The notes under the pieces were generated by a model. It saw only the letters and a list, made by a program, of their open reading frames with translations. It was not told the origin of the DNA and searched no databases. Positions 6,064 through 63,153 of a stretch of DNA of 64,000 nt are shown piece by piece (the stretch's first letter is position 1; the number at the start of each line of letters is the position of its first letter). Position numbers and translations under genes: made by a program. The stretch spans positions 1 through 64,000 of the forward strand of contig NZ_JAPUVI010000029.1 in assembly GCF_029255285.1 (NCBI RefSeq), in the 5' to 3' direction. Origin of the DNA: Accumulibacter sp. (GTDB lineage: Bacteria > Pseudomonadota > Gammaproteobacteria > Burkholderiales > Rhodocyclaceae).

Positions 6064-7761
6064 ATGAATGGACTAGCCTGGAGAATTCGCGCGGCAATGG
6101 CCGTCCCGTTGGCCGCCGCGGCGCTGTTTGGAGGGGTGGCGATTGGGGTGTACGGGGGTAGCGATTATGCTTGGCCGGTGGCGCTCGGCTTGCTCGTGCT
6201 GACCACCGGTGTCGTCGCGGCCGTCTTCGAGAGGAGCATGATTGGCCGCCTGCAACGGTTACGCGAGGTCATTGCGGCGATGTACGGTGATGGGGATCTG
6301 ACACGGCGAGCCGCCGTCGAAGGCAAGGACGAAATCGCTGCGCTGGCGGCTGACTTCAACCGACTGATCGGGAGTTTCGCGACCATCGTCGGCAAGGTGC
6401 TGTTCAACTCGGCCGAGGTGGTCAAGGCGTCCGGACTTTTGATCGACGATTCGGCCCGTGTCGCGTCGGGTTCGAAGCAGCAACGCGATGCGGCACTGGC
6501 GACGGCCAGCGCGATGAGCGAACTGACCGAAAGCATGACTCAGGTCAGTCGGAATGCGAGCGATACCGCGGCGATTGCCGAAGCGTCGAACCGCCTGTCG
6601 AACGACGGAATGGCGATCGCGCATGGTGCTTCAGCCGAGATGAAGCAGATCGCGGCGACGGTGACGCAGTCGGCGGAGGTGGTAGGTGCGCTGGGCGAGC
6701 GCTCGAAAGCAATCAGCGGCATCGTTCAAACGATACGCGAGATTGCCGACCAGACCAACTTGCTGGCGCTCAACGCCGCGATAGAAGCGGCGCGCGCCGG
6801 TGAACAGGGGCGTGGTTTCGCGGTCGTGGCCGATGAGGTGCGCAAGCTTGCCGAACGGACATCCCAGGCTACCGGCGAAATCAGTCAAATGATTGGTGCG
6901 ATTCAGGGCGAGACCGAGAGTGCGATCAGTAGCATCGCGGCCGGGACAGGACAAGCTCACGTTGGCGCGGATCTTGCGATGCAGGCCGCTCAGTCGCTGG
7001 AACGTATCAACGAAGGGGCGCGCGAAACGATGGAGAAGGTCGAGGCTATCGCTGCCTCGGTTGCTCAGCAGAGCCGCACGGGGCAGAGCATCGCCGAGCA
7101 CGTCGGTCGTATCCGGGAGATGGCCGAAACCAACAACGCGCTCACCGAGCAGGCTCTGGTGGCCGTCGATCAGGTTCAGTGTTTGGCCGAAAATCTCAAA
7201 GAAATCAGTAATGTATTCCAACTCGGCGAGGCCGGCGAGCAGGCGGTCGCGACGCACGCTCAGATGCCGGAGATCGTCGGTCAAGCCGCCCAGGGAGTGG
7301 GCCGAATGTTCGAGCAGGCGATCGATACGGGGCGGATTGCGCTCGAGGAATTGTTCGACGATCGGTATCAGCCGATCCCGAATACACGGCCGCAGAAATT
7401 CAAGACGCGTTTTGATGACTTCACCGATCAGTTCGCTTTGCCTTTGCAGGAGAACTTGTTGGCCCAGCACAAGTGGCTGACCTACGCGGTCTGCATCGAT
7501 CGCAACGGCTATGTGCCGACGCACAACCAAAAGTTTTCGCAGCCTCTGACCGGAGACGAAAAGATCGATTTCGCGAACAACCGTACCAAACGGATTTTCG
7601 ACGACCCGGTCGGCAAGCGCAGCGGCACGCACCGACATCCCTTCCTGTTGCAGACCTATCGACGCGACACCGGCGAACTGTTGCATGACATTTCGTCTCC
7701 GATCTATGTCAAGGGCAGACACTGGGGCGGTTTTCGCATGGGGTACCAGACCGTGATGTAA
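6064..7761 (+). CDS. Methyl-accepting chemotaxis protein with C-terminal sensory module
   Basis: This is a 565-residue chemoreceptor. Two hydrophobic segments at about 10-55 are joined by only a few residues, so there is almost no periplasmic sensing domain. A HAMP-like segment (about 58-110) follows. The methyl-accepting coiled coil has the conserved hairpin tip near residues 226-262 ('[19 protein letters not shown]', '[12 protein letters not shown]'). Unusually, about 135 residues follow the signalling domain (about 430-565) with motifs '[12 protein letters not shown]', 'NRTKRIFDD', '[11 protein letters not shown]' and '[11 protein letters not shown]'. I take this as a Cache/PAS-like sensory module acting in the cytoplasm, a pattern I recall from other betaproteobacterial receptors. 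It stands just upstream of the cheV genes. Confidence 0.93.
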
Positions 7762-7873
7762 AGCGCTGTCCGATGCGGCCTGCGCAGCCGGTGGATCATT
7801 GGTCAGCGGCGTTCATTTGAATTAAGATGTTTCGCTATGGCCTTGTGCGGGTCTTGCTGCGAGGGAACGAAAA

Positions 7874-8842
7874 ATGTCCGACCTATTGAAGAATATTGAT
7901 GCCCGCACCAAGCTGGCGGGAACCAACAAGCTGGAGATTCTGCTGTTCATGCTCGGTACCGACGCCCGCACCGGCCGGCGCGAGACCTTCGGCATCAACG
8001 TCTTCAAGGTGCGCGAGGTGATGCGTACGCCGCCGATCACGTCGGCGCCGGAAATGCCTCCTTCGGTCGAGGGAATGGTCAGCTTGCGCGGCTCCCTTGT
8101 TCCAGTCGTCGATCTGGCACGTTATGCGGGCGTGGATACCGAGGCGCCGCGCTCGATCATGATCGTTACCGAATACGCTGGGCACACCCAGGGTTTTCTC
8201 GTCGAAGGCGTGGATACCATCCTACGCCTCGACTGGAGCCAGATGCGGGTGCCACCGGCGATGTTGCTGGCCGAAATGGGTGGTTTGGTGACGGCGGTCA
8301 CGGAATTGCCCGACGGTCGCCTGGTGATGTTGATGGATGTCGAGAAAATCCTTTCGGAAACGACGAACTACGACGACGAGCACGTCTACCGGAATATCAA
8401 GCCGCTGGACCATCCAGGCTTGACCGTGTTTTTCGCCGACGATTCGTCGGTTGCGCGCAAGCAGATTCAGCGGACCTTGGACGCCATGGGAGTGAAATCC
8501 CAGGCGGCGATCAATGGCCGCGAAGCGTGGGACGAACTGGAAAAGGTAGCGGCCTACGCGCAGGCTTCGGGCCAAAACGTGACCGACCTGATCAGCCTGG
8601 TGCTGACCGACATCGAAATGCCGGAGATGGATGGTTACATTCTGACCAAGAAGATAAAGTCCGACCCCCGCTTCACCGGCGTGCCGGTGATCATGCATTC
8701 CTCCTTGTCCGGGATGTCCAACCAGCAACTTGGTAAGTCTGTCGGTGTTGATGAGTATGTGCCGAAGTTCGAACCGCAACGCCTGTCGGAGACGCTCACG
8801 CGCCGGTTGCTGGGGGTGGCTCCGGTTGTGCAGTTGACCTGA
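7874..8842 (+). CDS. cheV: CheV chemotaxis coupling protein (first copy)
   Basis: CheV joins a CheW scaffold domain to a receiver domain and tunes receptor-kinase coupling by phosphorylation from CheA. The 322-residue product has a CheW domain at about 20-165 ('SVEGMVSLRGSLVPVVDL') and a receiver domain at about 182-315. The receiver has the acidic pair D189/D190 ('FFADDS') and the phospho-acceptor D246 in 'VLTDIEMPEMDG'. It is followed 28 bases later by a second cheV that is clearly paralogous. It differs from that copy by an inserted 'TDARTGR' segment near residue 30. Confidence 0.95.
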   Translation: MSDLLKNIDARTKLAGTNKLEILLFMLGTDARTGRRETFGINVFKVREVMRTPPITSAPEMPPSVEGMVSLRGSLVPVVDLARYAGVDTEAPRSIMIVTEYAGHTQGFLVEGVDTILRLDWSQMRVPPAMLLAEMGGLVTAVTELPDGRLVMLMDVEKILSETTNYDDEHVYRNIKPLDHPGLTVFFADDSSVARKQIQRTLDAMGVKSQAAINGREAWDELEKVAAYAQASGQNVTDLISLVLTDIEMPEMDGYILTKKIKSDPRFTGVPVIMHSSLSGMSNQQLGKSVGVDEYVPKFEPQRLSETLTRRLLGVAPVVQLT

Positions 8843-50552: not shown

Positions 50553-51455
50553 ATGCTCGCTTTCCTGCCTGCCCCGCTAATCGGTCTGATCGCCTCGCTG
50601 CTGCTCGGACTGAATAGCCTGTTCTGGGTACCGCTCCTGTTGCTGGTCGCCTTGTTCAAGCTCGTCCTGCCCTTGCACGCCGTTCGCCTGCGTCTCGATC
50701 CGATTCTGATCCGGATTGCGGAAGCGTGGATAGGGTGCAACAGTGCCTGGATGGCGCTGACCCAGAACGCGGTGTGGGATGTGCAAGGCATCGCCGGACT
50801 GGACGCCCGTGGCTGGTATCTCGTCAACTGCAATCATCAGACCTGGGCCGACATTCTAGTGCTCCAGCACTTGCTGACGCGCCGCATTCCGCTGCTCAAG
50901 TTCTTTCTCAAGGAGCAACTGCTGTGGGTGCCGGTGATGGGTCTTGCCTGGTGGGCACTCGATTTTCCCTTCATGCGCCGGCACAGTGAAGAAGTGCTCA
51001 GCCAGCACCCGGAGCTGCGCGCCAAAGACCAGGACGCGACGCGCCGCGCTTGCCAGAGGTTCGCGCTGCTGCCGACCAGCGTCGTGAACTTCTGCGAAGG
51101 GACTCGTTTCACGTCAGTCAAACATCAGCGTCAGCAGTCGCCGTATCGCTACCTGCTGAAGCCCAAGGCCGGTGGGATTGCTCTGGCGCTCAATGTGATG
51201 GGTGACAAGTTCCGGGCGATTCTCGACGTCACCATCGTCTATCCTGACGGCGCGCCCGACTTCTGGGCGTTCCTGAGTGGCCGGATGAAGCGCGTGCGGG
51301 TTCGTGTGCAGGCGCTGCCGGTGCCGATCGATCTGGCGAAAGCTGACTACGCGGGTGACCCGGCGGTTCGCGAGGCGTTTCAGAAGTGGATTCAAAGCCT
51401 CTGGCGCGACAAGGATGAACAGATTGCCCGCTTGCTCGAAAGGTCTGCACGATGA
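50553..51455 (+). CDS. YihG-type 1-acylglycerol-3-phosphate acyltransferase
   Basis: This is a membrane-bound lysophosphatidate-type acyltransferase (PlsC superfamily) of 300 residues. Two hydrophobic segments occupy the first 45 residues. Catalytic motif I is 'NHQTWAD' (HX4D), and motif III is 'FCEGTRF'. It resembles E. coli YihG, which is similar in length. The ATG at 50553 is preferred over a TTG at 50517. It ends in an ATGA overlap with the LuxR-family regulator gene. Confidence 0.88.
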   Translation: MLAFLPAPLIGLIASLLLGLNSLFWVPLLLLVALFKLVLPLHAVRLRLDPILIRIAEAWIGCNSAWMALTQNAVWDVQGIAGLDARGWYLVNCNHQTWADILVLQHLLTRRIPLLKFFLKEQLLWVPVMGLAWWALDFPFMRRHSEEVLSQHPELRAKDQDATRRACQRFALLPTSVVNFCEGTRFTSVKHQRQQSPYRYLLKPKAGGIALALNVMGDKFRAILDVTIVYPDGAPDFWAFLSGRMKRVRVRVQALPVPIDLAKADYAGDPAVREAFQKWIQSLWRDKDEQIARLLERSAR

Positions 51456-54163
51456 GTGTCGGGCTGGCAGCACACACCGTCCAGATCGTCTTCAGCAAGC
51501 TGCGGCCTCCGCCGCTGGTCGCGGACTATTTCCCACGCAGTGAATTGCTGCGGCGGCTCGAGGTCGGCTGCGAATTGCCACTGACCGTCCTGTCGGCGCC
51601 GGCCGGTTATGGCAAGACTTCGCTCGCCGCCTGCTGGCTCGAGGGCCGCGAAGGGCCGGCCGCTTGGCTGTCGCTCGACGACGACGATGGCGAACTGATC
51701 GCTTTCGCAAGCTATTTCGTCGCCGCTGTGCACAGTGCGTTTCCCGATGCCTGCGCCGAGACGGTGCGCTACCTGAATTCCGGTCAACCCTGCTCGCCGA
51801 CCATTCTTGCCGGCCGTCTGAGCAACGATCTCGATGCCTTGCCAGTGCCCTTGGTGCTGGTTCTCGACAACTATCAGCGCGTCGACTCGACGCCGGTGCA
51901 AACCTTGCTGGATCGTTTGCTGGCTCACTCGTCGGACGGCTTGCGGCTGGTGATCGTCACCCGCCGTACGCCGCAGTTGTGTCTCAGCGCGCTGCGCGTA
52001 GGCGGCGCCTTGGCCGAGATCGGCACGGCGGACCTGCAGTTCTCCGAACGCGAAAGCGCCATGCTGGTCGAACGCTGCGTTGGACACGTGATGGTGGCGA
52101 CAACGCTTGCCCGGTTGCAGGAGACTACGGAAGGTTGGCCGGTCGGTGTTCGACTGGCGGCGCTAGCGATGCGCAACGGCGGGGGAGGCGACGATGTGGA
52201 CCTCGTCTGCCGAGGCGACTTGCCGCAAGTTCAGCAATATTTCTTTGAAGAACTGTTTGCCCAACAGGTGCCGGAGGCGATTGACGGTCTGCTGCGTACC
52301 TCGATCTTGGAGCGCTTCTGCGCGCCTCTCTGTGATGTCATGCTCGCGACCGGAGAGGCGCCGGGCGGCGCCGCCGGAAGCCAGCCGTTGCTGCAGGCCG
52401 TGTCGAGCGGCGCCCTGCTGTGCAGCGCGATCGGTGACGACGGCGAGTGGTATCGCTATCATCGGATGTTTCGCGAATTCCTCCTGTGCCAACTCAAACT
52501 GCGCCTGGGACCCGGCGAGATTGCGGAATTGCACCGGCGGGCGGCCGATTGGCTGGAAACGCGGGGTTGCCTGGAAGAGGCCATCCCGCACGCGCTTGCC
52601 GGTGGCGGCGCGGCGGTAGCCGGGCGTCTGTTGGCGCGCCATCGCCACGTCTTGGTAAGCCGCGAACAGCGTTACCGGCTCGATCGCTGCCTGCGGCGGC
52701 TGCCGCCCGACATTGTCGAGAACGACGCGGAACTGCTCGCCCTGAAGTCCTGGCTGATGTATCACCAGGGGCGGCACGTGGAAATTCCGGCAGTCTGCGA
52801 CCGGATCGAATGGCTGATCGAAAACGGGGTTGGCGGCCTTTCTACCGTAGCCCATGAGGCCCTGTCCGGCCACGTTTTCGCGTTGCGCAGCCTGCAGGCT
52901 TACTTCGAAGGCCGGGCCGAGGTCACCGTGGCTTTTGCCGAGCGGGCACTGCGGCTCCTGCCGGTCGCCTGCGTACACGCTCGTGTCACCGCCCAGGCAC
53001 TTTTGGCCGGGGGGCGGCAACTCGCTGGCGACCTCGACGGCGCTCGCCACGCCATTCAGCAGGCCCTGGTGCAGGCCACCGGGCCGATCGACGCCTGCCA
53101 GGCGCCACTGGTCGCCACCCTTTGCCTGATTGACTGGATGGCGGCCGATCTGTCAGCGTTGCAGTGGACCGCCAACCAGTACTACCCGCTACCCGATTCG
53201 GGTTTCGGTACCGGCGGCGAGATTGCTCTCGGGCGCTACTTTCTCGGTCTCGTTCAGTACCAGCGGAATGAGCTGGCACTTGCCGAGGCGACGCTGGTGC
53301 CGGCAGTCGCGCCGTCGAACGCGCCGCGACTCGGCTATCGTACCGAGATTTCGTACGTCCTGGCCGCCGTTCATCAGGCGCTGGGCCAGGCCGATCGGGC
53401 GCGTGAGATCGTCGACCGGGTGTGTGCGCATCTGCAGCAGAACGCCGACTTGCCGGCGCTGTTCCGCGCTCGCGCGTTTCAGGCCGACCTCGCGCTGCGC
53501 CAGGGGCGCCTCAACGACGCTGTGGAATGGGCGAGGGGCTTCGACCCCGGGCCTGTCCACTATGTTTATAGGTTCTTCAGCGCGCCGCATCTGACGTTGG
53601 CCAAAGTGTGGATTGCCGAGGGTACTGCCGAGGCGCACCAGCAGGCGGGCCGTCTTCTGCAGCTACTGGAGGAGGATCTGGCGTCACGGCACAACGTCCG
53701 TTTTCTGGTCGAAGTGCTGGCGCTGCAGGCGTTGCTTCAGCACGCGATGGCGAACGAGGTCGCTGCTACCGACTACCTCGGCCGTGCCGTGGCCTTGGCG
53801 CAGCCGGCAGGTCTGATCCGTGTTTTCGTCGATCTAGGTCAGGACCTGGTCAAGCCGTTGAAACGTTTGGACGCTGGCCATGGTCACGCGAGCTACGTTG
53901 GGCGGCTTCTCGCCGCGCTCAACGACGACTGGCTGGTGACGGCGGGTCGCCAGCAGGTGGGCGCCGATCTCACCCGGCGCGAGCTGAAAATCCTCAAGCT
54001 GCTCGCCGTCCGGCTGAGCAACGTCGAAATCTCGGAGGAGCTGTGTATCTCGCGGGCGACCGTCAAGCGGCATACGCAGAACATCTATCGCAAATTGCGT
54101 GCCTCGAGTCGCCGCGAAGCGGTCGTCAGGGCGAGGACGCTCAATCTCCTCGCCGACGGCTGA
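51452..54163 (+). CDS. MalT-like large ATP-binding LuxR-family regulator (LAL)
   Basis: This 903-residue transcription factor has the LAL/STAND layout. The N-terminal NTPase domain has the Walker A 'APAGYGKTSLAA' near residue 50 and a Walker B-like 'LVLVLDNYQRVDS' near 130. A long helical-repeat region (about 350-830), rich in Ala and Leu, follows. The C-terminal LuxR-type helix-turn-helix is at about 840-895 ('LTRRELKILKLLAVRLSNVEIS', 'SRATVKRHTQNIYRKL'). MalT is the best-known relative. The inducer and targets are unknown. Its ATGA overlap with the acyltransferase gene suggests cotranscription and a possible link to lipid metabolism. Confidence 0.93.
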   Translation: MSVGLAAHTVQIVFSKLRPPPLVADYFPRSELLRRLEVGCELPLTVLSAPAGYGKTSLAACWLEGREGPAAWLSLDDDDGELIAFASYFVAAVHSAFPDACAETVRYLNSGQPCSPTILAGRLSNDLDALPVPLVLVLDNYQRVDSTPVQTLLDRLLAHSSDGLRLVIVTRRTPQLCLSALRVGGALAEIGTADLQFSERESAMLVERCVGHVMVATTLARLQETTEGWPVGVRLAALAMRNGGGGDDVDLVCRGDLPQVQQYFFEELFAQQVPEAIDGLLRTSILERFCAPLCDVMLATGEAPGGAAGSQPLLQAVSSGALLCSAIGDDGEWYRYHRMFREFLLCQLKLRLGPGEIAELHRRAADWLETRGCLEEAIPHALAGGGAAVAGRLLARHRHVLVSREQRYRLDRCLRRLPPDIVENDAELLALKSWLMYHQGRHVEIPAVCDRIEWLIENGVGGLSTVAHEALSGHVFALRSLQAYFEGRAEVTVAFAERALRLLPVACVHARVTAQALLAGGRQLAGDLDGARHAIQQALVQATGPIDACQAPLVATLCLIDWMAADLSALQWTANQYYPLPDSGFGTGGEIALGRYFLGLVQYQRNELALAEATLVPAVAPSNAPRLGYRTEISYVLAAVHQALGQADRAREIVDRVCAHLQQNADLPALFRARAFQADLALRQGRLNDAVEWARGFDPGPVHYVYRFFSAPHLTLAKVWIAEGTAEAHQQAGRLLQLLEEDLASRHNVRFLVEVLALQALLQHAMANEVAATDYLGRAVALAQPAGLIRVFVDLGQDLVKPLKRLDAGHGHASYVGRLLAALNDDWLVTAGRQQVGADLTRRELKILKLLAVRLSNVEISEELCISRATVKRHTQNIYRKLRASSRREAVVRARTLNLLADG

Positions 54164-54432
54164 CAGGCCCGCCGCGAACGCTGCCCGGAGCCCCTTTGCC
54201 AGCTTGTCCAGGCGGCTCGTCAGTCGGTTTTGACTAAGCAAATTGCCCGCCATTGCAGGGCGCCGAACCGCTTTTCATTGACTTAAGTCAGGCATTCGCC
54301 AATTCGGCGAAAAATGGCCCGTTTCATGGCCCTTCCAGGAGTCAATTCCGGCTTCCCGCTTTTCCGCATGGTGGCATAATTGCCCGCTATGCAAATTCTC
54401 CCTACCCGTAGTCCGCTCGCGAAACGGATGCC
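54164..54432. other. Regulatory intergenic region before parA
   Basis: About 270 bases without a gene. It holds a perfect 12-bp palindrome TGACTTAAGTCA (54279-54290) inside ATTGACTTAAGTCAGG, which resembles an FNR/Anr-type site. A -10-like CATAAT lies at 54375-54380. The same place also reads GG-N10-GC (TGGTGGCATAATTGC), a poor sigma-54 match. The parA start lies 52 bases further on. Confidence 0.45.
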
Positions 54433-55098
54433 ATGTCAATGTCCCTAGCCCGGGTGATCGCTGTCGTGTCGCAGAAGGGCGGCGCCGGGAAAACCACTGT
54501 CGCGATGCAACTCGGTGGCGGGTTCCATGCGATCGGTGCCAGCGTGCTTCTGGTCGACCTTGACCCCCAGGAGAGCGCGTTTCGCTGGGCCGAGTCAGCC
54601 CCCTTGCTCGACTCCGAACTGCAGCTCGATGTGCGCAAAATGTCCGGGCTCGAACTGATCAAGCATGTCGGTGACCTGCAGCGCGAGGCGGACTATGTGG
54701 TGCTGGACACCCCACCGTCGATTTATCACCCGTCGACTCTTGCCGCGCTGGCCGTCGCGCATTTGGCGATCATCCCGGCCGTGCCGAGTCCGACCGATCT
54801 CTGGTCGACCCTTGCCGTCGAGCGGCTGATTCTCAACCGCATGGAGCAAAGCCATCGGCTGCACGGCTGCATCGTCCCCAACCGGGTGCAAAACACGGCG
54901 CTGGCGACCGATGTGCTCGAATTGCTGCACGAATTTACCTTGCCGATCCTCGACGCCACGCTCTGCCAGCGCAATGCCTATGCGCAGAGCGCGGTCATCG
55001 GGGCCTCGGTCTTTCAGCTCGGCGCGGCTGCGGAGGCCGCGCAGGATGAAGTCCGTAGATTGATCGCCGCCGTTCTTAAACAACTGGGAGACACCTGA
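54433..55098 (+). CDS. ParA-family partition ATPase
   Basis: This is a 221-residue ParA/MinD-type ATPase without an N-terminal DNA-binding extension, like plasmid type Ib ParA and the orphan ParAs that position protein cargos. The deviant Walker A is complete, K15-G-G-A-G-K20-T ('SQKGGAGKTT'), with the next motif 'LLVDLDPQESA' and the Walker B 'VVLDTPPS'. It overlaps the following gene by one base and is tightly coupled to it. It lies far from rnpA/gidA-type origin genes and is not the chromosomal parA. The cargo is not known. Confidence 0.92.
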   Translation: MSMSLARVIAVVSQKGGAGKTTVAMQLGGGFHAIGASVLLVDLDPQESAFRWAESAPLLDSELQLDVRKMSGLELIKHVGDLQREADYVVLDTPPSIYHPSTLAALAVAHLAIIPAVPSPTDLWSTLAVERLILNRMEQSHRLHGCIVPNRVQNTALATDVLELLHEFTLPILDATLCQRNAYAQSAVIGASVFQLGAAAEAAQDEVRRLIAAVLKQLGDT

Positions 55099-55856
55099 TG
55101 ACGACACCGACCCGAGCCGCCAGTTCCAACAAGTCCGCGCTGCGCGCCAGCCTCAAGAAAGAGGACGAATCGCTCGCCGAGCGGCTGGCTGCCACCGACG
55201 TTCCGTTGGTTGCCGAGCCGGAAGCCGAAACCCCCGTCGTTGCCGTACCGGCTAGTGAGCCCGCGCCAACTGCCGGCAAGGCGGCCAAGGTTGCGGTGAA
55301 GACGGTGGCGGCCCAGGCGAGTGGCGAAACGAAGTCTGCCGTGGCGAAGGCGCCGGCCAAGACCGGGAAGAAGCCTGCTCGCGCAAAGTCGCCAGCCGCG
55401 AAAACTGCCGTGCCGGAAGCGGCGCCGGCGGCGGCGCCGAAAGCCCGGCCGGTAGCTCGCAAAGCGGCTGCCGAGGCAAAGTCGGCTGCGCTGGAGAAAC
55501 CGGCCAAACGGGAAACAACGAGGAAAAAGCGCGGACCCGTAACGACCGCCGCGCCGACGACCAAGGAGTCGGCGGGCAAGCCACTGGCCACGCTCGAGGA
55601 GGCAGTAGTGAAGGTGGAGCGGGTGACCAAGGACAAGGGCGACAAGCTCGTGCGTTACACGGTCGAGCTGCTGAAGAGCGAAGCGGCGGCTATCGAGTCG
55701 CTGCGCGTCGAGCTGGCAAAAGCCGCCGGCTGGGCGGCGAGCAAGTCGGACATCCTGCGCGCTGGGGTGAAGGTTTTTGCCGAGCAGAAACTCGACGAGA
55801 TGAAGTCGGTGCTCGGTGCTCTGGCTGGGGCTTCGAAGGCTGGAAAAAAGGGTTGA
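55098..55856 (+). CDS. Lys/Ala-rich protein with C-terminal ribbon-helix-helix-like domain
   Basis: This 252-residue protein begins one base before the parA stop. Residues about 50-165 are a low-complexity tail of Ala, Lys and Pro repeats ('KAPAKTGKKPARAKSPAAKTA') like histone H1 or AlgP tails, and should bind DNA or polyanions. The C-terminal part (about 170-240) shows a strand 'KLVRYTVELLKSE' and helices 'SLRVELAKAAGWAASKSDILRAGVKVFAEQ', the pattern of a ribbon-helix-helix domain. The natural reading is the ParB-like adaptor of the ParA just upstream. The granule-bound basic proteins PhaF and AlgP have comparable tails. Function is inferred. Confidence 0.8.
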   Translation: MTTPTRAASSNKSALRASLKKEDESLAERLAATDVPLVAEPEAETPVVAVPASEPAPTAGKAAKVAVKTVAAQASGETKSAVAKAPAKTGKKPARAKSPAAKTAVPEAAPAAAPKARPVARKAAAEAKSAALEKPAKRETTRKKRGPVTTAAPTTKESAGKPLATLEEAVVKVERVTKDKGDKLVRYTVELLKSEAAAIESLRVELAKAAGWAASKSDILRAGVKVFAEQKLDEMKSVLGALAGASKAGKKG

Positions 55857-55905: not shown

Positions 55906-55961
55906 GGATGCGCCCGACGGCGTGTTGTAGTGGTTGGCGTGTTGTAGTGCTTGTCGTGGTG

Positions 55962-56041: not shown

Positions 56042-56680
56042 ATGTTTAGTAGTTTGATGCCGCAACGCAAGGAATTCTTTGAACTTCTCGCTGCGCATTC
56101 CGAACAAGTGGTGGCTGGAGCCAACGCAACCTTGCGTCTGATCAATGGTCTGGGCGACGCCGGGACAAACCTCGCGGCGCTGGTCGACGAAGTCAATCAG
56201 CACGAGCAGAACGGTGACCAGATCAAGGCCAAGGTGATCAGTCGCTTGCACCAGTCGTTCACCACCCCGATCAACCGCGATCAGATCCACGCGCTGATCA
56301 GCGACCTCGACATGACGCTGAATGTGCTGCAAAGCGTTGCCAATGCGTTGGGCATGTACAACATCAAGCAGTCGACGGTGGAAGCGCGCGAAATGGCGGC
56401 CCTGAGCGCCGATGCGTGCATGCGTCTGAATCGCGCGGTGGCGGCCTTGGGCGACAAGTCGCGCGGCGAGGAGACGCTGAACTTGTGCAAGGAGATCGAG
56501 GAGATCGAGTCGAAGGCCGACAAGATTCAGCACAAGGCAATTACCGCCTTGTTCCAGGAGGGTGCCAACATCTGGCAGACGATGAAGATGCGGGAGTTCT
56601 ACTCGCTTCAGGAAGCCGTCCTCGATTCCTGCCAGGAAGCGGCCAAGATGATCGAAGAGATCCTGATCGAAAACTCCTGA
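56042..56680 (+). CDS. DUF47/PhoU-like protein (first copy)
   Basis: This is a helical cytoplasmic protein of 212 residues of the DUF47 family, distant relatives of PhoU that accompany PiT phosphate transporters. The ATG at 56042 follows GGGAGG; a longer frame upstream is rejected. Family pattern: 'FFELLAAHSEQVVAGANATLRLI' at the N-terminus, 'EQNGDQIKAKVISRLHQSF' with metal-ligand-type acidic residues, and 'EIEEIESKADKIQHKAI' in the second three-helix bundle. It lies 13 bases before pit and probably regulates its activity. Confidence 0.93.
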   Translation: MFSSLMPQRKEFFELLAAHSEQVVAGANATLRLINGLGDAGTNLAALVDEVNQHEQNGDQIKAKVISRLHQSFTTPINRDQIHALISDLDMTLNVLQSVANALGMYNIKQSTVEAREMAALSADACMRLNRAVAALGDKSRGEETLNLCKEIEEIESKADKIQHKAITALFQEGANIWQTMKMREFYSLQEAVLDSCQEAAKMIEEILIENS

Positions 56681-56693
56681 GAGGTAGCCGAAA

Positions 56694-57707
56694 ATGGAAG
56701 GCCTAAATATGAGCATCTGGACGCTGGCGCTGCTGATTGCAGTGGCACTGGCGTTCGACTTCATGAACGGGTTTCACGACGGCGCCAACTCGATCTCGAC
56801 GATCGTTGCGACCGGAGCCCTGACCCCGAAACAGGCGGTGCTGTTCGCCGCGTTCTTCAACTTCGCCGCGCTCTGGGTATTCCAGCTCAAGGTGGCGGCA
56901 ACCATCGGCAAGGGCACGGTCGATCCCAGCTTCGTCGATTATTACGTGATTTTCGGGGCCTTGATCGGCGCTTTGGCCTGGAACATCATCACCTGGTACT
57001 ACGGCATTCCGTCGTCGTCATCGCACGCCCTGGTCGGTGGTCTGGTCGGCGCGACGGTGGCCAAGGCCGGCTCGGGGGCGCCCATCGTTTGGGAGGGTTT
57101 CGGCAAGATCCTCGCTTTCATCATCATTTCGCCGCTGGTCGGGGTCATCATCGGCGGCCTGCTGATGGTGCTTGTCGCCTGGATCTTTCGTGGCACTTCG
57201 CCGTATCAGGCCGGCAAGTTCTTCAAGGGCGGGCAGTTGTTCGCCGCTGCTGCGTACAGTCTGGGCCACGGTGGTAACGACGCGCAGAAAACCATCGGCA
57301 TCATCTGGCTGCTGATGATCACTGCCGGCGTAGCGACCAAGGACGTTGCGACCCTGCCCACCTGGGTGATTTACGCGTGCTACTTCGCTATCGCCTGGGG
57401 AACGTATCTCGGTGGCTGGCGAATCGTCAAGACGATGGGAACCAAGATCACCAAGCTCAACGCGATCAGCGGATCGTGCGCTTCGATGGGTGGCGCGATC
57501 ACTCTTGGACTGGCGACGCTGGGCGGCATTCCGGTGTCGACGACGCATACCATCACCGGTGCCATCATCGGCGTCGGTGCGGCGACCGACGTCAAGGCGG
57601 TGCGCTGGGCGATCACTGCCAATCTGCTGGTTGCCTGGGTGTTGACCATCCCGGCCTCGGGCCTGATCGCCGCGGTCTTCTGGTACATCGGAACCAAGTT
57701 CCTGTAA
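56694..57707 (+). CDS. pit: PiT-family low-affinity phosphate transporter (first copy)
   Basis: This is an inner-membrane phosphate symporter of 337 residues with about ten hydrophobic segments. The two PiT signature repeats are present: 'FDFMNGFHDGANSISTIVATGAL' in split form near residue 25 and 'LGHGGNDAQKTIGIIWL' near 195. 'GIPVSTTHTITGAIIGVG' is also conserved. PiT proteins carry metal-phosphate complexes with protons. It is flanked on both sides by DUF47 genes. Confidence 0.95.
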   Translation: MEGLNMSIWTLALLIAVALAFDFMNGFHDGANSISTIVATGALTPKQAVLFAAFFNFAALWVFQLKVAATIGKGTVDPSFVDYYVIFGALIGALAWNIITWYYGIPSSSSHALVGGLVGATVAKAGSGAPIVWEGFGKILAFIIISPLVGVIIGGLLMVLVAWIFRGTSPYQAGKFFKGGQLFAAAAYSLGHGGNDAQKTIGIIWLLMITAGVATKDVATLPTWVIYACYFAIAWGTYLGGWRIVKTMGTKITKLNAISGSCASMGGAITLGLATLGGIPVSTTHTITGAIIGVGAATDVKAVRWAITANLLVAWVLTIPASGLIAAVFWYIGTKFL

Positions 57708-57812: not shown

Positions 57813-58448
57813 ATGTTACCCAAGCGGTCCGAGTTTTTTGAGCTTCTCGCGGCACACAGCGAGCGCGTCCTGGCCGGAGCCAATGCCATGCTGCGCCTGG
57901 TGAACAGCCTGGGGGTCAGCAAGCAGGACGTTGCCGCGCTGGTCGAGGAAATCAATATGAACGAGACCAGTGCGGACCAGATCAAGGCGGATCTGCTGAC
58001 CATGCTGCACAAGTCCTTTGTCACGCCGCTCAACCGTGACCAGGTTTATGCCCTGACGCTAGACATCGACAGCGTGATGAACGCGGTACAGGATGTCGCA
58101 CAAGCGGCCAGCATCTACAACATCACCGAGGTAAATACCGAGTCGCACGAGCTGGCATCGATGACGGTCGACGCCTGCACGCGCCTGACGCGTGCGATTG
58201 CCTCGCTGAAGGCCAAGGAGCGCAACAAGGAGACGGTCGATCTGTGCGTCGAGATCGAGCACATCGAAGAGAAATCCGTCGCGGTGATGTACAAGGCCAT
58301 CAAGAGCCTGTTCGATACCGAGGGAGACGAGGCCGCCGCTCTGCGGGCCATGCGCATGCGGCAGTTCTATTCATTGCAGGAGAAGGTGCTGCGGGCCAGC
58401 AAGAAGTCGGCCCAGACGCTCGAGGAAATTCTGCTCCAGAATGCTTGA
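57813..58448 (+). CDS. DUF47/PhoU-like protein (second copy)
   Basis: This is a 211-residue paralogue of the first DUF47 protein, alike along its whole length ('FFELLAAHSERVLAGANAMLRLV', 'SADQIKADLLTMLHKSF', 'MRMRQFYSLQEKVLRASKKSA'). A GGGAGG site precedes the ATG, again as in the first copy. Duplication of a DUF47 unit around pit is the simplest origin. It may share the upstream transcript or start its own. Confidence 0.93.
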   Translation: MLPKRSEFFELLAAHSERVLAGANAMLRLVNSLGVSKQDVAALVEEINMNETSADQIKADLLTMLHKSFVTPLNRDQVYALTLDIDSVMNAVQDVAQAASIYNITEVNTESHELASMTVDACTRLTRAIASLKAKERNKETVDLCVEIEHIEEKSVAVMYKAIKSLFDTEGDEAAALRAMRMRQFYSLQEKVLRASKKSAQTLEEILLQNA

Positions 58449-58821: not shown

Positions 58822-59505
58822 ATGTTACCGACCAACCCGATAGCAGCGTTGTTTGGCAGATCGCCGTTCAAGCCGCTGCAGCAGCACATGCGCGTCGTCA
58901 TCGAATGCGTCAGTGAGGTTCCGGCCCTTTTTCGGGCGTTGATCGACAATGACCAGGAGCAGCTCGAAGAGCAGAAAAACCGGATTTTCGTCAAGGAAAG
59001 CGCAGCGGACGCGATCAGGGCCGACATGTGCGACCACTTGCCGCGCAGCCTGCTCCTTGCCGTGGACCGGCAGGACCTTCTCGAACTGCTGGCCATGCAG
59101 GACGCGATCGCCGACACGGCGCAGGATATCGCCGGTTTGCTGGTCGAGCGCCGGATGGAGGTGCCGGCAGGCATGGCCGAACCGCTGATGCGGTTGGTAG
59201 CTCGTTGCGTCGATACCTGCGAACTGGCGCACCAGATCATCGAGCAGATCGACGAGCTCCTGGAGAGCGGCTTCCGCGGTCGTCCTGCCGAGCGTGTGCA
59301 GGCAATGGTCATCGAACTCGGGCATATGGAGAGTGATACGGATGTCATGGGAATGGACTTGGCGCGAGCGCTTTTTGCCGAGGAGGATAACCACAAGCCG
59401 GTGTCCGTGATGTTCTGGTATCAGTTGATCCAGTGGGTCGGGACGCTGGCCGACCACGCTGAGCGGGTGGGAGAGGTACTGCGTCTGCTGATTGCCCGCC
59501 GCTAG
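58822..59505 (+). CDS. DUF47/PhoU-like protein (third, divergent copy)
   Basis: This 227-residue DUF47 protein belongs to a different branch from the first two. It starts 'MLPTNPIAALFGRSPFKPLQQHM', like the TIGR00153 proteins paired with Pit in many proteobacteria. Acidic positions such as 'DNDQEQLEEQKNRIFVKESAADAIR'-type and 'MESDTDVMGMDLARALF' are kept. A GGAGG site lies seven bases before the ATG. The longer frame upstream is rejected. It is followed 242 bases later by the second pit gene. Confidence 0.92.
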   Translation: MLPTNPIAALFGRSPFKPLQQHMRVVIECVSEVPALFRALIDNDQEQLEEQKNRIFVKESAADAIRADMCDHLPRSLLLAVDRQDLLELLAMQDAIADTAQDIAGLLVERRMEVPAGMAEPLMRLVARCVDTCELAHQIIEQIDELLESGFRGRPAERVQAMVIELGHMESDTDVMGMDLARALFAEEDNHKPVSVMFWYQLIQWVGTLADHAERVGEVLRLLIARR

Positions 59506-59747
59506 CGCCGTTGGTTGACCAGGTGAGCCAAGCCCGATGATGAGATTTGTAGCCTTCACGCTCGGTGGAGGGGTGCCTGTCGGCGTGGCCGTCGGGCGTG
59601 AGCGGTGGGTGAAGCGAAGGCTTCGCGGTTGGCGTCTCCGCCTCCGGAGTCGTCGCGCTAGCGAGGTGTTTTTTCGGAGAGATCGTGCCGCTGGCAGGCA
59701 TCGCGCTCGTCCGTCACGTCTTCGACCCGGGCGCTAGGGGTTGCCGC

Positions 59748-61010
59748 ATGGAGATCATCGCTCAGCATCAATCCGTTTTTCTGGCTCTGGCTTTCGGCTG
59801 CGGCCTTTACATGACCTGGGGCATAGGAGCTAACGATGTTGCCAACGCCATGGGGACCACCGTCGGGTCGGGAGCCATCACGGTCAGGCAGGCCGTCGTT
59901 CTGGCCGCCGTAATGGAGTTTCTCGGCGCCTATCTGGCGGGCGGCGAAGTGGCTGACACGATCGCGCAAGGTATCATCGATGGCGCACGTTTTGCGCCGG
60001 TGCCGCATCTGCTGATGTTCGGGATGCTCGCCGCCTTGTTGGCCACCGGCATCTGGCTGATGGTTGCCACTTTACGCGGCTGGCCGGTATCCACGACGCA
60101 TACCATCGTCGGCGCCGTTTGCGGCGTCGGCGTGGCCGCTCTTGGCTCCGACGCGGTGCAATGGGAGAAGATGGGTGAGATCGTCGCCAGTTGGTTCATA
60201 TCACCGGTGCTTGGTGGAATCGTTGCCCTGTCGCTGACCCTGAGCATCCGGCGGTTCATTTTCAACACTCGCGACCCGGTTGGTCAGGCGCGTAAATGGG
60301 GGCCAGTTTATGCTTTTCTGGTCGGCTGGGTCGTTTCGCTGATCGTCATTGCCAGGGGTCTGCAGCACATCAACATCAATTTTGGCATTCTCGAAGGTCG
60401 GCTACTGGCGGTCGCGATCGGTATCGTCGTCGCCGTAGGTGCCTGGCTGATGATGAAGCGCGTCAAACTCGGCGCGCATGCCGATCGAGCCTCCCAGCAT
60501 GCCAGCGTCGAGCGACTGTTCATCCCACAGATGGTGTTGACCGGGGCGGCGATGGCCTTCGCGCACGGTTCCAACGACGTGGCCAATGGTATCGGTCCGA
60601 TGGCGGCAGCAATCCAGATCATCGAGACGCGGGCGGTGTCGGCGACCTCGCCGGTGACACCCTTGATGCTGCTCATCGGTGGCCTGGGAATCGTCGTCGG
60701 TCTGGCGACCTATGGCTACAAAGTGATGGCCACGCTTGGCCACAAAATCACCGAGTTGACGCCGACCCGGGCCTACTGCGCGACGATCGCCGCCGCTTTC
60801 GTCACCGTGGCAGCTTCCGGTCTGGGTTTGCCGGTTTCGGCGTCGCATATTGCCGTTGGTGCCGTGATGGGCGTCGGCATCGCCCGTGGTATCGGCGCTC
60901 TCGACCTGCGAGTCGTGAGCGGAATCGTCGTTTCGTGGTTCATCACGGTTCCGGTTGGCGGCCTCCTCGCGGCCATCGTGTTCCATGGCCTCAAAGCGTC
61001 GTTTTCCTAG
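59748..61010 (+). CDS. pit: PiT-family phosphate transporter (second copy, longer type)
   Basis: This is a 420-residue PiT transporter of the longer subtype, with about ten membrane segments and a cytoplasmic loop near 245-265. Signatures are 'WGIGANDVANAMGTTVGSGAI' in split form near residue 25 and 'AHGSNDVANGIGPMAAAI' near 275, plus 'GWPVSTTHTIVGAVCGVG'. It is only distantly similar to the first Pit, so it is probably an independent lineage with its own DUF47 partner and not a recent duplicate. Start ATG 59748 removes a non-hydrophobic extension. Confidence 0.95.
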   Translation: MEIIAQHQSVFLALAFGCGLYMTWGIGANDVANAMGTTVGSGAITVRQAVVLAAVMEFLGAYLAGGEVADTIAQGIIDGARFAPVPHLLMFGMLAALLATGIWLMVATLRGWPVSTTHTIVGAVCGVGVAALGSDAVQWEKMGEIVASWFISPVLGGIVALSLTLSIRRFIFNTRDPVGQARKWGPVYAFLVGWVVSLIVIARGLQHININFGILEGRLLAVAIGIVVAVGAWLMMKRVKLGAHADRASQHASVERLFIPQMVLTGAAMAFAHGSNDVANGIGPMAAAIQIIETRAVSATSPVTPLMLLIGGLGIVVGLATYGYKVMATLGHKITELTPTRAYCATIAAAFVTVAASGLGLPVSASHIAVGAVMGVGIARGIGALDLRVVSGIVVSWFITVPVGGLLAAIVFHGLKASFS

Positions 61011-61081: not shown

Positions 61082-61696
61082 ATGGCCGACTTGCCCACCC
61101 AGTTCGTCGAGTCGCTGCAGAACTACAAGGGCATCGACTTTCCGGCTGATATTCGCTATCGCCAGATTCTGGTGACCGGTCCTCCGGGTGCCGGCAAGAG
61201 CACCTTGATCGTGCACCTCGGCGGCTGGTCTGAGGAAGGCTATCTGGATCTCGGAAAGAAGCACTGGTGGCGATCGGAAATTCTTTCGGTTCGACCGCGT
61301 GAAATTCACTTGGGAATGCCTTTCGTCGGTCTTGAAAACGCAGTGTCGGTTTTCGATGCCGAGTTTCTAGATCGCAACCCGTTGCCGCTGGTCGACTTTG
61401 CTCGCCTGGTGTTGCCGCCACGAAAGCGCTTTTTTTTCTCAGTCGACTGGTATCGGCGCTATGTGTTCGAGTTCCTGCTGCCGCCTGCGGATCTCGTCTT
61501 CGAGCGGCGTAGCGAGCGGGCACGGCATAGCACGCATCCGGTGGACGCCCAACTCAGCCTGGCGATCTGCACGGCGCAACTCGAGGTGTTTCGCCGTGTC
61601 GCGGAGTTTCTGCATGAGAAGGGTTTCTACGTCTATCTCCGTGAAGGGATGGACAGCGCTCCGAGGCGTTTCGTCGGCGCCCGGCCTCTGCCGTGA
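61082..61696 (+). CDS. P-loop NTPase of unknown function, partner of the PPP phosphatase
   Basis: This 204-residue cytoplasmic protein has a clear Walker A ('GPPGAGKST', residues 33-41, K39), the form common in small-molecule and polynucleotide kinases. A possible Walker B region lies near 'SVFDAEFLDRNP'. I cannot assign a substrate. Its stop overlaps the GTG of the next gene (GTGA), so the two products are probably made in fixed ratio and may work on the same substrate. Aromatic-rich 'KKHWWRSEI' and 'FFFSVDWYRRYVFEF' are distinctive. Confidence 0.8.
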   Translation: MADLPTQFVESLQNYKGIDFPADIRYRQILVTGPPGAGKSTLIVHLGGWSEEGYLDLGKKHWWRSEILSVRPREIHLGMPFVGLENAVSVFDAEFLDRNPLPLVDFARLVLPPRKRFFFSVDWYRRYVFEFLLPPADLVFERRSERARHSTHPVDAQLSLAICTAQLEVFRRVAEFLHEKGFYVYLREGMDSAPRRFVGARPLP

Positions 61697-63153
61697 AGAG
61701 GCGTACTGCCAGACGCCCCCGCCGCATAGCGAGTCTTGTCGCCCGGTTGAAGGCGATCTCTGCCCGGCTCGGATTTGGCTGGGGCCATAACCTGAAGCTC
61801 GGCGACGCTTATCGGCTGGGCAGCACCAAGGTGCGTGTACCGCTCGACGGCATTCCGATCGAGATCACTCTGGGCTTGAATGACAGGCGCCTTCACCTGT
61901 ACCCGGAAACTCGTCTAAACCAGCGGGGCGAGACGATCCGGCTCAGCAGTTTCATCATTTTCGACCCGCGCACCCATCTTCGTCGCATCGGTGGCTTTCT
62001 ACGGCTCAGCCCGAAGAGCTGGCTGGCCCTGGGTTCCGGGGACGCAACCCAACAAGCGATGTTCGACTACCCTTCGGCCGTCGATGAGCAGCACCTCGTC
62101 GTGATCTACGGTCGGGATGCACTGGTTTTTCGTAATTTGAGCGATGCGGGAACGGCCATTGCACCGATGCTCGACGAGGTCAAATCGATCCGCATGAGCA
62201 AGTTGCGGCGCTTGCGCGACATTTTTGGCGGCCCGATCGAAGCCTTGGCGAGAGACGAAGCCTTGGCGTTGATCGAGGCGGTCATTCGCCTGTTGCGTGA
62301 TGAGGTCTATCGTCCGCGCGACGACCGTGGCCTGCCGGGTGGTCTGCTGATATTGCCGCCGACAGTGACTCCGATCCTGGTCGCCGACCTGCACGCTCAG
62401 GTGGACAATCTCTTGACGGTGTTGAGCCAGAATGCCTTTCTCGAAGCACTGGAAGACGGCAGTGCGGTTCTGGTGATACTGGGCGACGCCGTGCACTCGG
62501 AGGTGGATGGGCAACTCAGGGAGATGGTCGGGTCGATGGTGTTGATGGATCTCATTTTCCGACTCAAGTTGCGTTTCCCGGAGCAGGTCTTCTACCTTCG
62601 TGGCAACCACGATTCCTTTTCCGAGGACATCGCCAAGGACGGAATTCCGCAGGGCCTCTTGTGGGCCAAGGAACTCAGCGAGCGGCGCGGTACCGCCTAT
62701 CTGAAAGCGATGGGGGAATTCTATCGGCTGTTGCCCTATGTCGCGGTTTCGCCGAATTTCCTGGCGAGCCATGCGGCAGCGCCGAAGACCAAGGTCAACC
62801 GGGAGATGCTGGTGCAGATTCATCGTCATCCGGACTTGGTTCTGGAGCTGATCAACAACCGCCTGTATCGTGCAAACCGCCCCCAGGGCTACAACCGCCG
62901 TGACGTAAAGCGCTTCCGCCGCGCGCTGCAGGTCGATCCGAAGACGCCTTTCATCGTCGGCCATACGCCGATCGACCGCGAAGGGACCCTGTGGTTGAAC
63001 GTCGACGCTATCGCCAATCATCACGTGCTGTTCAGTGCCCATCCCGACCAAGTCGGCGTGTTCACCCTCATCGACGATACCATGGTACCGCTGGTTTACC
63101 CGGTGGATGCTTTGACGCCGATCATCAATGGCCTGGAGGGGAATGCGGGCTGA
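61693..63153 (+). CDS. PPP-family metallophosphatase with FHA-like N-terminal region
   Basis: This is a 486-residue protein. The C-terminal half (about 225-470) is a calcineurin-like phosphatase with the PPP motifs in order: 'ADLHAQ' (D232, H234), 'GDAVHSE' (D265, a variant of GDxxDRG lacking the Arg), 'GNHD' (about 304-307), then 'ASHAA' and 'VGHTP' histidines. Residues about 100-160 look FHA-like ('LALGSGD', 'EQHLVVIYG', 'NLSDAGTAI'), but the phosphothreonine-binding Arg is not visible. The first 30 residues are very basic. It could remove phosphate from protein, nucleotide or RNA. Its overlap with the P-loop gene recalls kinase-phosphatase pairs. Confidence 0.83.
   Translation: MKRRTARRPRRIASLVARLKAISARLGFGWGHNLKLGDAYRLGSTKVRVPLDGIPIEITLGLNDRRLHLYPETRLNQRGETIRLSSFIIFDPRTHLRRIGGFLRLSPKSWLALGSGDATQQAMFDYPSAVDEQHLVVIYGRDALVFRNLSDAGTAIAPMLDEVKSIRMSKLRRLRDIFGGPIEALARDEALALIEAVIRLLRDEVYRPRDDRGLPGGLLILPPTVTPILVADLHAQVDNLLTVLSQNAFLEALEDGSAVLVILGDAVHSEVDGQLREMVGSMVLMDLIFRLKLRFPEQVFYLRGNHDSFSEDIAKDGIPQGLLWAKELSERRGTAYLKAMGEFYRLLPYVAVSPNFLASHAAAPKTKVNREMLVQIHRHPDLVLELINNRLYRANRPQGYNRRDVKRFRRALQVDPKTPFIVGHTPIDREGTLWLNVDAIANHHVLFSAHPDQVGVFTLIDDTMVPLVYPVDALTPIINGLEGNAG

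Follow-up and report, generated by a model that had tools for sequence, protein, structure and literature searches.

Several described systems bear on the locus reported here. In alpha-carboxysome McdAB, a small ParA without a helix-turn-helix (HTH) is encoded beside a partner with an N-terminal basic helix and a Lys/Ala/Pro-rich linker. In type Ib plasmid partition, ParF works with ParG, a ribbon-helix-helix (RHH) protein with a flexible N-terminus, to which the partner described below can be likened. AlgP and PhaF of Pseudomonas are KPAA-tailed granule proteins with a Lys/Ala/Pro-rich, basic, disordered stretch, and phosins are CHAD proteins located on polyphosphate granules. The contact that ParA/MinD ATPases make with their partners is reported to run through the partner's N-terminus, which is basic and disordered (PMC10241942); 20 N-terminal residues suffice in McdB (PMC12204374, a preprint), and the even spacing of polyphosphate granules requires the KPAA-rich AlgP (PMC9239181). 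A 2025 review lists as unknown whether polyphosphate and PHB granules are positioned in an ATP-dependent way (PMC13052382).

The window, by which we mean the whole stretch of 64,000 nucleotides analyzed, belongs to a contig of 140.7 kb in a Candidatus Accumulibacter genome of 4.19 Mb; the genus is a model polyphosphate accumulator (PMC12604563). The first-pass annotation had reported a complete ParA-type ATPase overlapping a partner gene by one base, and both open reading frames (ORFs) were confirmed, with base 55098 shared (Table 1). The five phosphate genes it placed next door are indeed present downstream, as two Pit/PHO4 transporters and three DUF47/PhoU_div proteins. A MalT/LuxR-type regulator gene (51452-54163) lies upstream of parA, and a 17-bp tandem repeat of 2.4 copies (55919-55958) separates the partner from the first DUF47 gene. 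After the second Pit gene (61082-63153), P-loop NTPase-like and metallophosphatase genes form a conserved pair at most loci of the genus.

Table 1. Features of the parA-partner locus and its phosphate genes (positions in the window).
Feature	Position	Strand	Basis or remark
Tandem 12-bp-spaced repeat TGGCCC-GTTTCA-TGGCCC	54315..54332	+	Proposed RHH operator or centromere-like site
Promoter-like element	54352..54380	+	First hexamer 54352-54357, 17-nt spacer, CATAAT 54375-54380
ParA-type ATPase, 221 aa	54433..55098	+	ORF and family matches
Adaptor partner, 252 aa	55098..55856	+	N-helix, Lys/Ala/Pro-rich linker, RHH domain, basic end
N-terminal basic helix of partner (residues 11-31)	55128..55190	+	Conserved; proposed ParA-contacting element
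Variable Lys/Ala/Pro-rich linker (residues 40-170, approximate)	55215..55607	+	Alignment, low-confidence model
RHH domain (residues 181-240)	55638..55817	+	Sequence pattern, model
DUF47/PhoU_div protein	56042..56680	+	PF01865 E=7.7e-24
Pit-type phosphate transporter	56694..57707	+	PF01384 E=3.5e-89
DUF47/PhoU_div protein	57813..58448	+	PF01865 E=1e-17
DUF47/PhoU_div protein	58822..59505	+	PF01865 E=3.4e-50; start picked by homology within longer ORF
Pit-type phosphate transporter	59685..61010	+	PF01384 E=3.3e-109

The ATPase matches PF13614 (E=1.4e-17) and related nucleotide-binding families, and it scores 179.6 bits against NCBIfam NF041546 ('ParA family partition ATPase'), for which the curated cut-off is 180. 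Its P-loop (residues 14-21) carries the deviant Walker A sequence QKGGAGKT. This sequence is kept in 27 of the 28 ParA proteins of the genus; the remaining row is probably L055, whose late called start gives 209 aa. KGGxGK is also invariant between genera, in an alignment of 10 rows. At 221 aa, the protein leaves no room for an N-terminal HTH. Judged by its sequence, it has both the deviant Walker A and the short, HTH-free form of ParF/McdA-like type Ib ParA/MinD ATPases.

At E<=0.1 the partner has no match among Pfam or NCBIfam families, and its alignment resolves three parts. Among 21 partners with all parts, the mean majority fraction is 0.93 for residues 11-31, 0.34 for the linker, and 0.83 for the RHH region. 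The linker has a net charge of +18 over residues 61-160 and is of low confidence in the predicted model, as expected of disorder. The first-pass annotation was right about a C-terminal RHH pattern, whereas the Lys/Ala/Pro stretch that it took for a tail is an internal linker, and the protein ends in KKG. The partner shares with AlgP and PhaF a Lys/Ala/Pro-rich, basic, disordered stretch. However, AlgP combines a helical N-terminal domain with C-terminal KPAA repeats, whereas the basic stretch of the partner is internal and its C-terminal part is the RHH domain. Unlike phosins, the partner shows no CHAD domain in Pfam.

The full-length AlphaFold model of the partner is of low confidence (pLDDT 54.8), with a helix predicted at residues 9-32 (block pLDDT 77 and 75). 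Modelled alone, the RHH domain reaches a pLDDT of 80.1; the monomer shows helices and lacks a strand. Its top four PDB fold matches, none of them significant (E>1), include ParB of pCXC100 and, twice, ParD2, both RHH proteins. The sequence pattern and the model are compatible with RHH at the C-terminus, with weak support from curated families, and the domain changes together with the repeat upstream of parA, as described below. A toxin-antitoxin reading of this domain was rejected, as the ParD antitoxin model matches two relatives only weakly (E 0.0086 and 0.049); no toxin gene was noticed next to the pair.

Called partner lengths across the genus range from 182 to 324 aa. The 182-aa partner of G004 (L043) keeps the helix, the linker and a KKKG end without the RHH domain, which may be a true loss or an assembly fault. 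In G010 (L038), a C-run just past the partner start puts the frame out of register and leaves no called ORF, from either a sequencing error or a phase-variable tract. The partner in G003 stops at a contig edge, and that in G027 contains an N-run.

Within Accumulibacter the pair is universal among the genomes sampled. A ParA orthologue at 81-95% identity is present in 28 of 28 genomes, the window's own included, and partner sequence adjoins it in all 28, in one only to the contig end. The order parA-partner-DUF47-Pit is kept in 26 of the 27 loci fetched, the exception being a contig edge, and DUF47 follows the pair in 27 of 28 genomes. The pair is chromosomal: two of the genomes that carry it consist of one contig each (5.17 and 5.04 Mb). 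A search of named genomes returned 25 ParA loci, 24 of them at 82-95% identity and one a short 50% match in a Sphingomonadaceae bin. The MalT-like regulator was not found at eight loci of the genus, seven of which are the seven without the GGCCC doublet described below. At seven of these eight loci the first DUF47-Pit-DUF47 block was also not found, and the second directly follows the pair. In a single-contig genome (G009:C1:1680263-1682016), the first Pit gene matches as two pieces, as if interrupted.

A search with the RHH profile matched 86 of 297 genomes of the family (E<=0.01), and the ParA profile matched 70 of 297 (E<=1e-40), in 16 of 68 genera. ParA scores above 320 bits in 61 genomes from 13 of the 68 genera, and the remaining matches reach at most 216 bits. 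The idea of a genus-specific gene, suggested by the distant-only ParA proteins in nine other family genera sampled, was overturned by the RHH search of the 297 genomes. ParA was present at 32 of 40 loci fetched around family RHH matches. At all 32 pair loci outside the genus, an RHH domain starts less than 0.9 kb downstream of ParA on the same strand. The N-terminal helix is also found at all 32 (26 by pattern, six by eye or with a second pattern), although in diverged form in L156.

The gene context of the pair varies between genera. A polyphosphate or phosphate gene lies within 8 kb of it in four of 11 pair genera (p=0.0013 against controls, by genus): Accumulibacter (Pit, DUF47), two genera with PPK2 (8/8 and 2/2 loci) and one with PstS (2/2 loci). 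The protein from one of the PPK2 genera clears the equivalog cut-off for PPK2. In the other seven genera, the queries used found no such gene within 8 kb.

At class level, ParA relatives from many families (L190-L218) are McdA-like, and those loci that were read encode short partners ending ...WPD. We read these loci as alpha-McdAB, and their partners appear to share the N-helix and linker plan. The partner described here resembles KTRQKLVDSMRKTK-type partners by eye. It differs from them in having a C-terminal RHH domain and a KKG end rather than a short ...WPD end, and in being followed by DUF47/Pit phosphate genes rather than carboxysome genes. The ATPase shares 37% identity, across 97% of its length, with a plasmid-borne Nitrobacter ParA that sits beside carboxysome genes. 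Leaving aside the window's own genome, the top ParA score in the class sample was 188 bits. A BMC shell protein is encoded near some WPD-type loci, and others show no shell gene within the short flank read.

The RHH domain is distributed more widely than the pair. Of 300 genomes taken from across the order, 68 matched an extended RHH profile. Among 30 order loci read at about 3.2 kb, ParA was present only at the window's own. In solo loci with wider flanks the helix pattern was absent (0/34), and two of these 34 hold a weak ParA-like match, one about 5 kb away and the other a divergent gene 77 bp away. The N-terminal helix thus nearly always accompanies ParA, with two loose ends. L155, a family locus, has the helix and no ParA within 19 kb, and a PPK2 match lies about 0.6 kb away. 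L249 (G161, 6997-8268) is the helix-less solo RHH gene with the divergent ParA-like gene, which is of another kind, 77 bp away.

Clustering of the ORFs around solo RHH genes revealed ppk1, ppk2, ppx, sixA-like, CHAD and pst genes as recurrent neighbours in several families. Representatives pass the curated cut-offs for PPK1, polyphosphate:AMP phosphotransferase (PAP), PhoB, PstS and PstA, and PPX/GppA and CYTH-CHAD neighbours pass in Pfam; the SixA-like neighbour falls just under its cut-off (66.2 versus 74.5 bits). The CYTH-CHAD genes near some solo relatives recall the phosins. We scored ppk1, sixA-like, ppk2/PAP, ppx, CYTH-CHAD, pstS and pst-permease genes within 8 kb. At least one occurs at 19 of 34 solo loci and at none of 40 control regions (Fisher p=8.7e-9). 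This p-value is optimistic, since the controls were hand-picked and most queries derive from the very loci being counted and were chosen once the neighbours there were known. By family, the linkage is seen in eight of 14; with the family set aside in which all six loci are arranged alike, the count is 13 of 28 loci (p=1.2e-6). Six later solo loci with 6-kb flanks, none with a ParA match, gave such a gene in two of six (p=0.014), one of the two in the shared-arrangement family. No polyphosphate or phosphate gene was found at 15 of the 34 loci or at four of the six later ones.

The 34 loci comprise 31 of the 68 matched order genomes, the window's own second site included, and three from the family search; they come from the upper and middle part of the ranking, whose order was followed only loosely. 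At six of them, SixA-like starts had already been noticed upstream before the flanks were retrieved. The solo loci themselves supplied the query proteins for PPK1, SixA, PAP, PPX, CYTH-CHAD, PstS and pst-permease, a pair locus supplied the PPK2 query, and the window those for Pit and DUF47. The controls are round positions in 19 of the same genomes. The second site in the window's genome (L248, G000:C22, 7979-8351) is a more distant solo RHH gene of 124 aa. By clustering and by eye, it sits between two pstS-like genes, ahead of pst-permease-like genes.

We propose that the pair is a two-protein positioning system of the McdAB kind with a different, new adaptor, and that its cargo is most likely polyphosphate granules. 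We give this reading a probability of about one in two. It is favoured because the N-terminal helix matches what is reported for ParA/MinD partners, the basic linker is AlgP-like, and polyphosphate genes recur in the neighbourhoods. ATP-bound ParA would coat the nucleoid, and the basic N-terminal helix of the partner would touch the ParA dimer, leading to ATP hydrolysis and release. The Lys/Ala/Pro linker would keep the partner on its cargo, which would most likely be polyphosphate granules. The RHH domain would dimerize the partner and bind the repeat upstream of parA, controlling the operon, and it may also tether the cargo to DNA. Granules tracking the ParA gradient would be held apart and shared between daughter cells. 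What the computation shows is the genes and their conservation, the three-part partner, the coupling of the helix to ParA, the upstream repeat and the linkage of the adaptor family to polyphosphate and phosphate genes. The contact with ParA, the binding of polyphosphate, the granule cargo and its movement are put forward here from sequence comparison.

The main rival is a chromosomally captured type Ib (ParFG-like) DNA-partition cassette, in which the RHH domain would bind the upstream repeat as a centromere and the N-terminus would activate ParA, so as to move a chromosomal locus or a formerly plasmid-borne replicon. In PDB the ATPase matches best the plasmid partition protein ParF (E 7.4e-14), along with another ParA of 214 aa, and among plasmids it matched 930 records. 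In a tree, 17 of 17 sampled ParA proteins of the pair clade group together (local support 0.837). With five of the plasmid-borne ParA proteins included, this clade appears next to four of them, and ParB follows in two of these four; McdA proteins lie nearby. An upstream repeat together with an RHH protein is the make-up of a type Ib cassette, tandem repeats precede parA, and the ParB of pCXC100 among the non-significant top fold matches is centromere-binding.

The place of the ParA clade beside a few ParA proteins from plasmids, and the repeat that precedes parA, make a plasmid-derived origin plausible, the alternative that the first-pass annotation had offered. Linkage to plasmid replication genes, which that annotation had named as refuting its granule reading, was not seen. 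No replication gene was noticed at the pair locus among the window ORFs and their family matches, and a search of 72,556 plasmids returned nothing for the partner. Unlike ParFG, the pair is chromosomal and its partner has a long Lys/Ala/Pro linker. Moreover, the RHH family mostly occurs without ParA and is often near polyphosphate genes, and the context of the pair differs between genera. We consider the partition cassette unlikely.

The upstream repeat bears on this question and on the next alternative. It is a single site of two or three 12-bp-spaced units. Of the 28 genomes of the genus, 19 carry the exact pattern at the parA locus, and it occurs at only two places elsewhere, both inside ORFs. 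Dispersed parS-like sites were considered and rejected, as the exact double repeat is approximately unique in each genome, and the five further sites that were read, exact or with one mismatch, all fall within ORFs. A promoter-like CTTG...GGCATAAT is conserved downstream of the TGGCCC repeat (genus alignment, by eye), although a strict consensus scan returned no promoter at this element. By its sequence and position, the repeat fits autoregulation of its own operon by the RHH protein, and it fits a centromere equally well.

Alternatively, the partner may be a phosphate- or polyphosphate-responsive RHH transcription regulator. Polyphosphate would titrate the basic linker off DNA, ParA would tune DNA binding, and positioning would not be the point. 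Repeats occur in the promoter regions of paired and solo genes, with sequences that differ between subfamilies (partly by eye). Several other genera have AATAC-N-GTATTAC-like palindromes upstream of parA, and many solo RHH genes have GTATAAAC/GTTTATAC-like elements upstream (both by eye, uncounted). The GGCCC doublet is present in 19 of 26 regions upstream of parA; the seven without it comprise all six with the RHH strand VS..K (not VR..E) and one with VR. The strand and the repeat thus change together in six Accumulibacter genomes, although this may be a single event, since the six are probably one clade. Solo genes, in addition, often lie within phosphate or polyphosphate clusters. However, the exact double site occurs about once per genome, so no regulon of that exact site is visible, and a regulator would leave unexplained a ParA with a conserved P-loop and a coupled helix. 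We regard this alternative as less probable still.

The cargo is very improbably PHA granules, as for PhaF or PhaM: the linker resembles the PhaF and AlgP tails and phaC is present in each of the 31 pair-bearing genomes tested, but genomes lacking the pair have phaC almost as often (38 of 40), none of 31 genomes from 13 genera has it close to the pair (the nearest on the same contig being about 45 kb away, within the limits of draft contigs), and the partner has no phasin family match in Pfam or NCBIfam. PPK2 behaves similarly: all 31 pair-bearing genomes have it, and so do 39 of the 40 that lack the pair. Genome-wide co-occurrence of phaC and ppk2 is therefore uninformative, as nearly every genome has both. 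The first-pass annotation had suggested surveying the pair against pit/DUF47 or phaC/ppk genes; the pit/DUF47 linkage holds in Accumulibacter, whereas phaC and ppk2 presence does not separate the genomes. Its idea that a granule is positioned, perhaps of polyphosphate, gains from the solo RHH neighbourhoods and the four pair genera, and the organism is a polyphosphate accumulator; PHA is not supported.

Returning to the positioning of polyphosphate granules, we tentatively extend this proposal to the wider family. The Lys/Ala/Pro-linked RHH proteins may be unnamed, order-wide adaptors between polyphosphate and the nucleoid. In one family, which includes Accumulibacter, the adaptor may have gained a ParA-docking helix and a ParA, giving what would be the first ATP-driven machine for polyphosphate granule positioning and inheritance. 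Among the matches listed, the titles and abstract starts of openly licensed PubMed Central papers gave no description of such a ParA/RHH polyphosphate system. The pair is thus a candidate granule-positioning system in a model organism of biological phosphorus removal, and its solo relatives are a candidate family of polyphosphate-associated proteins.
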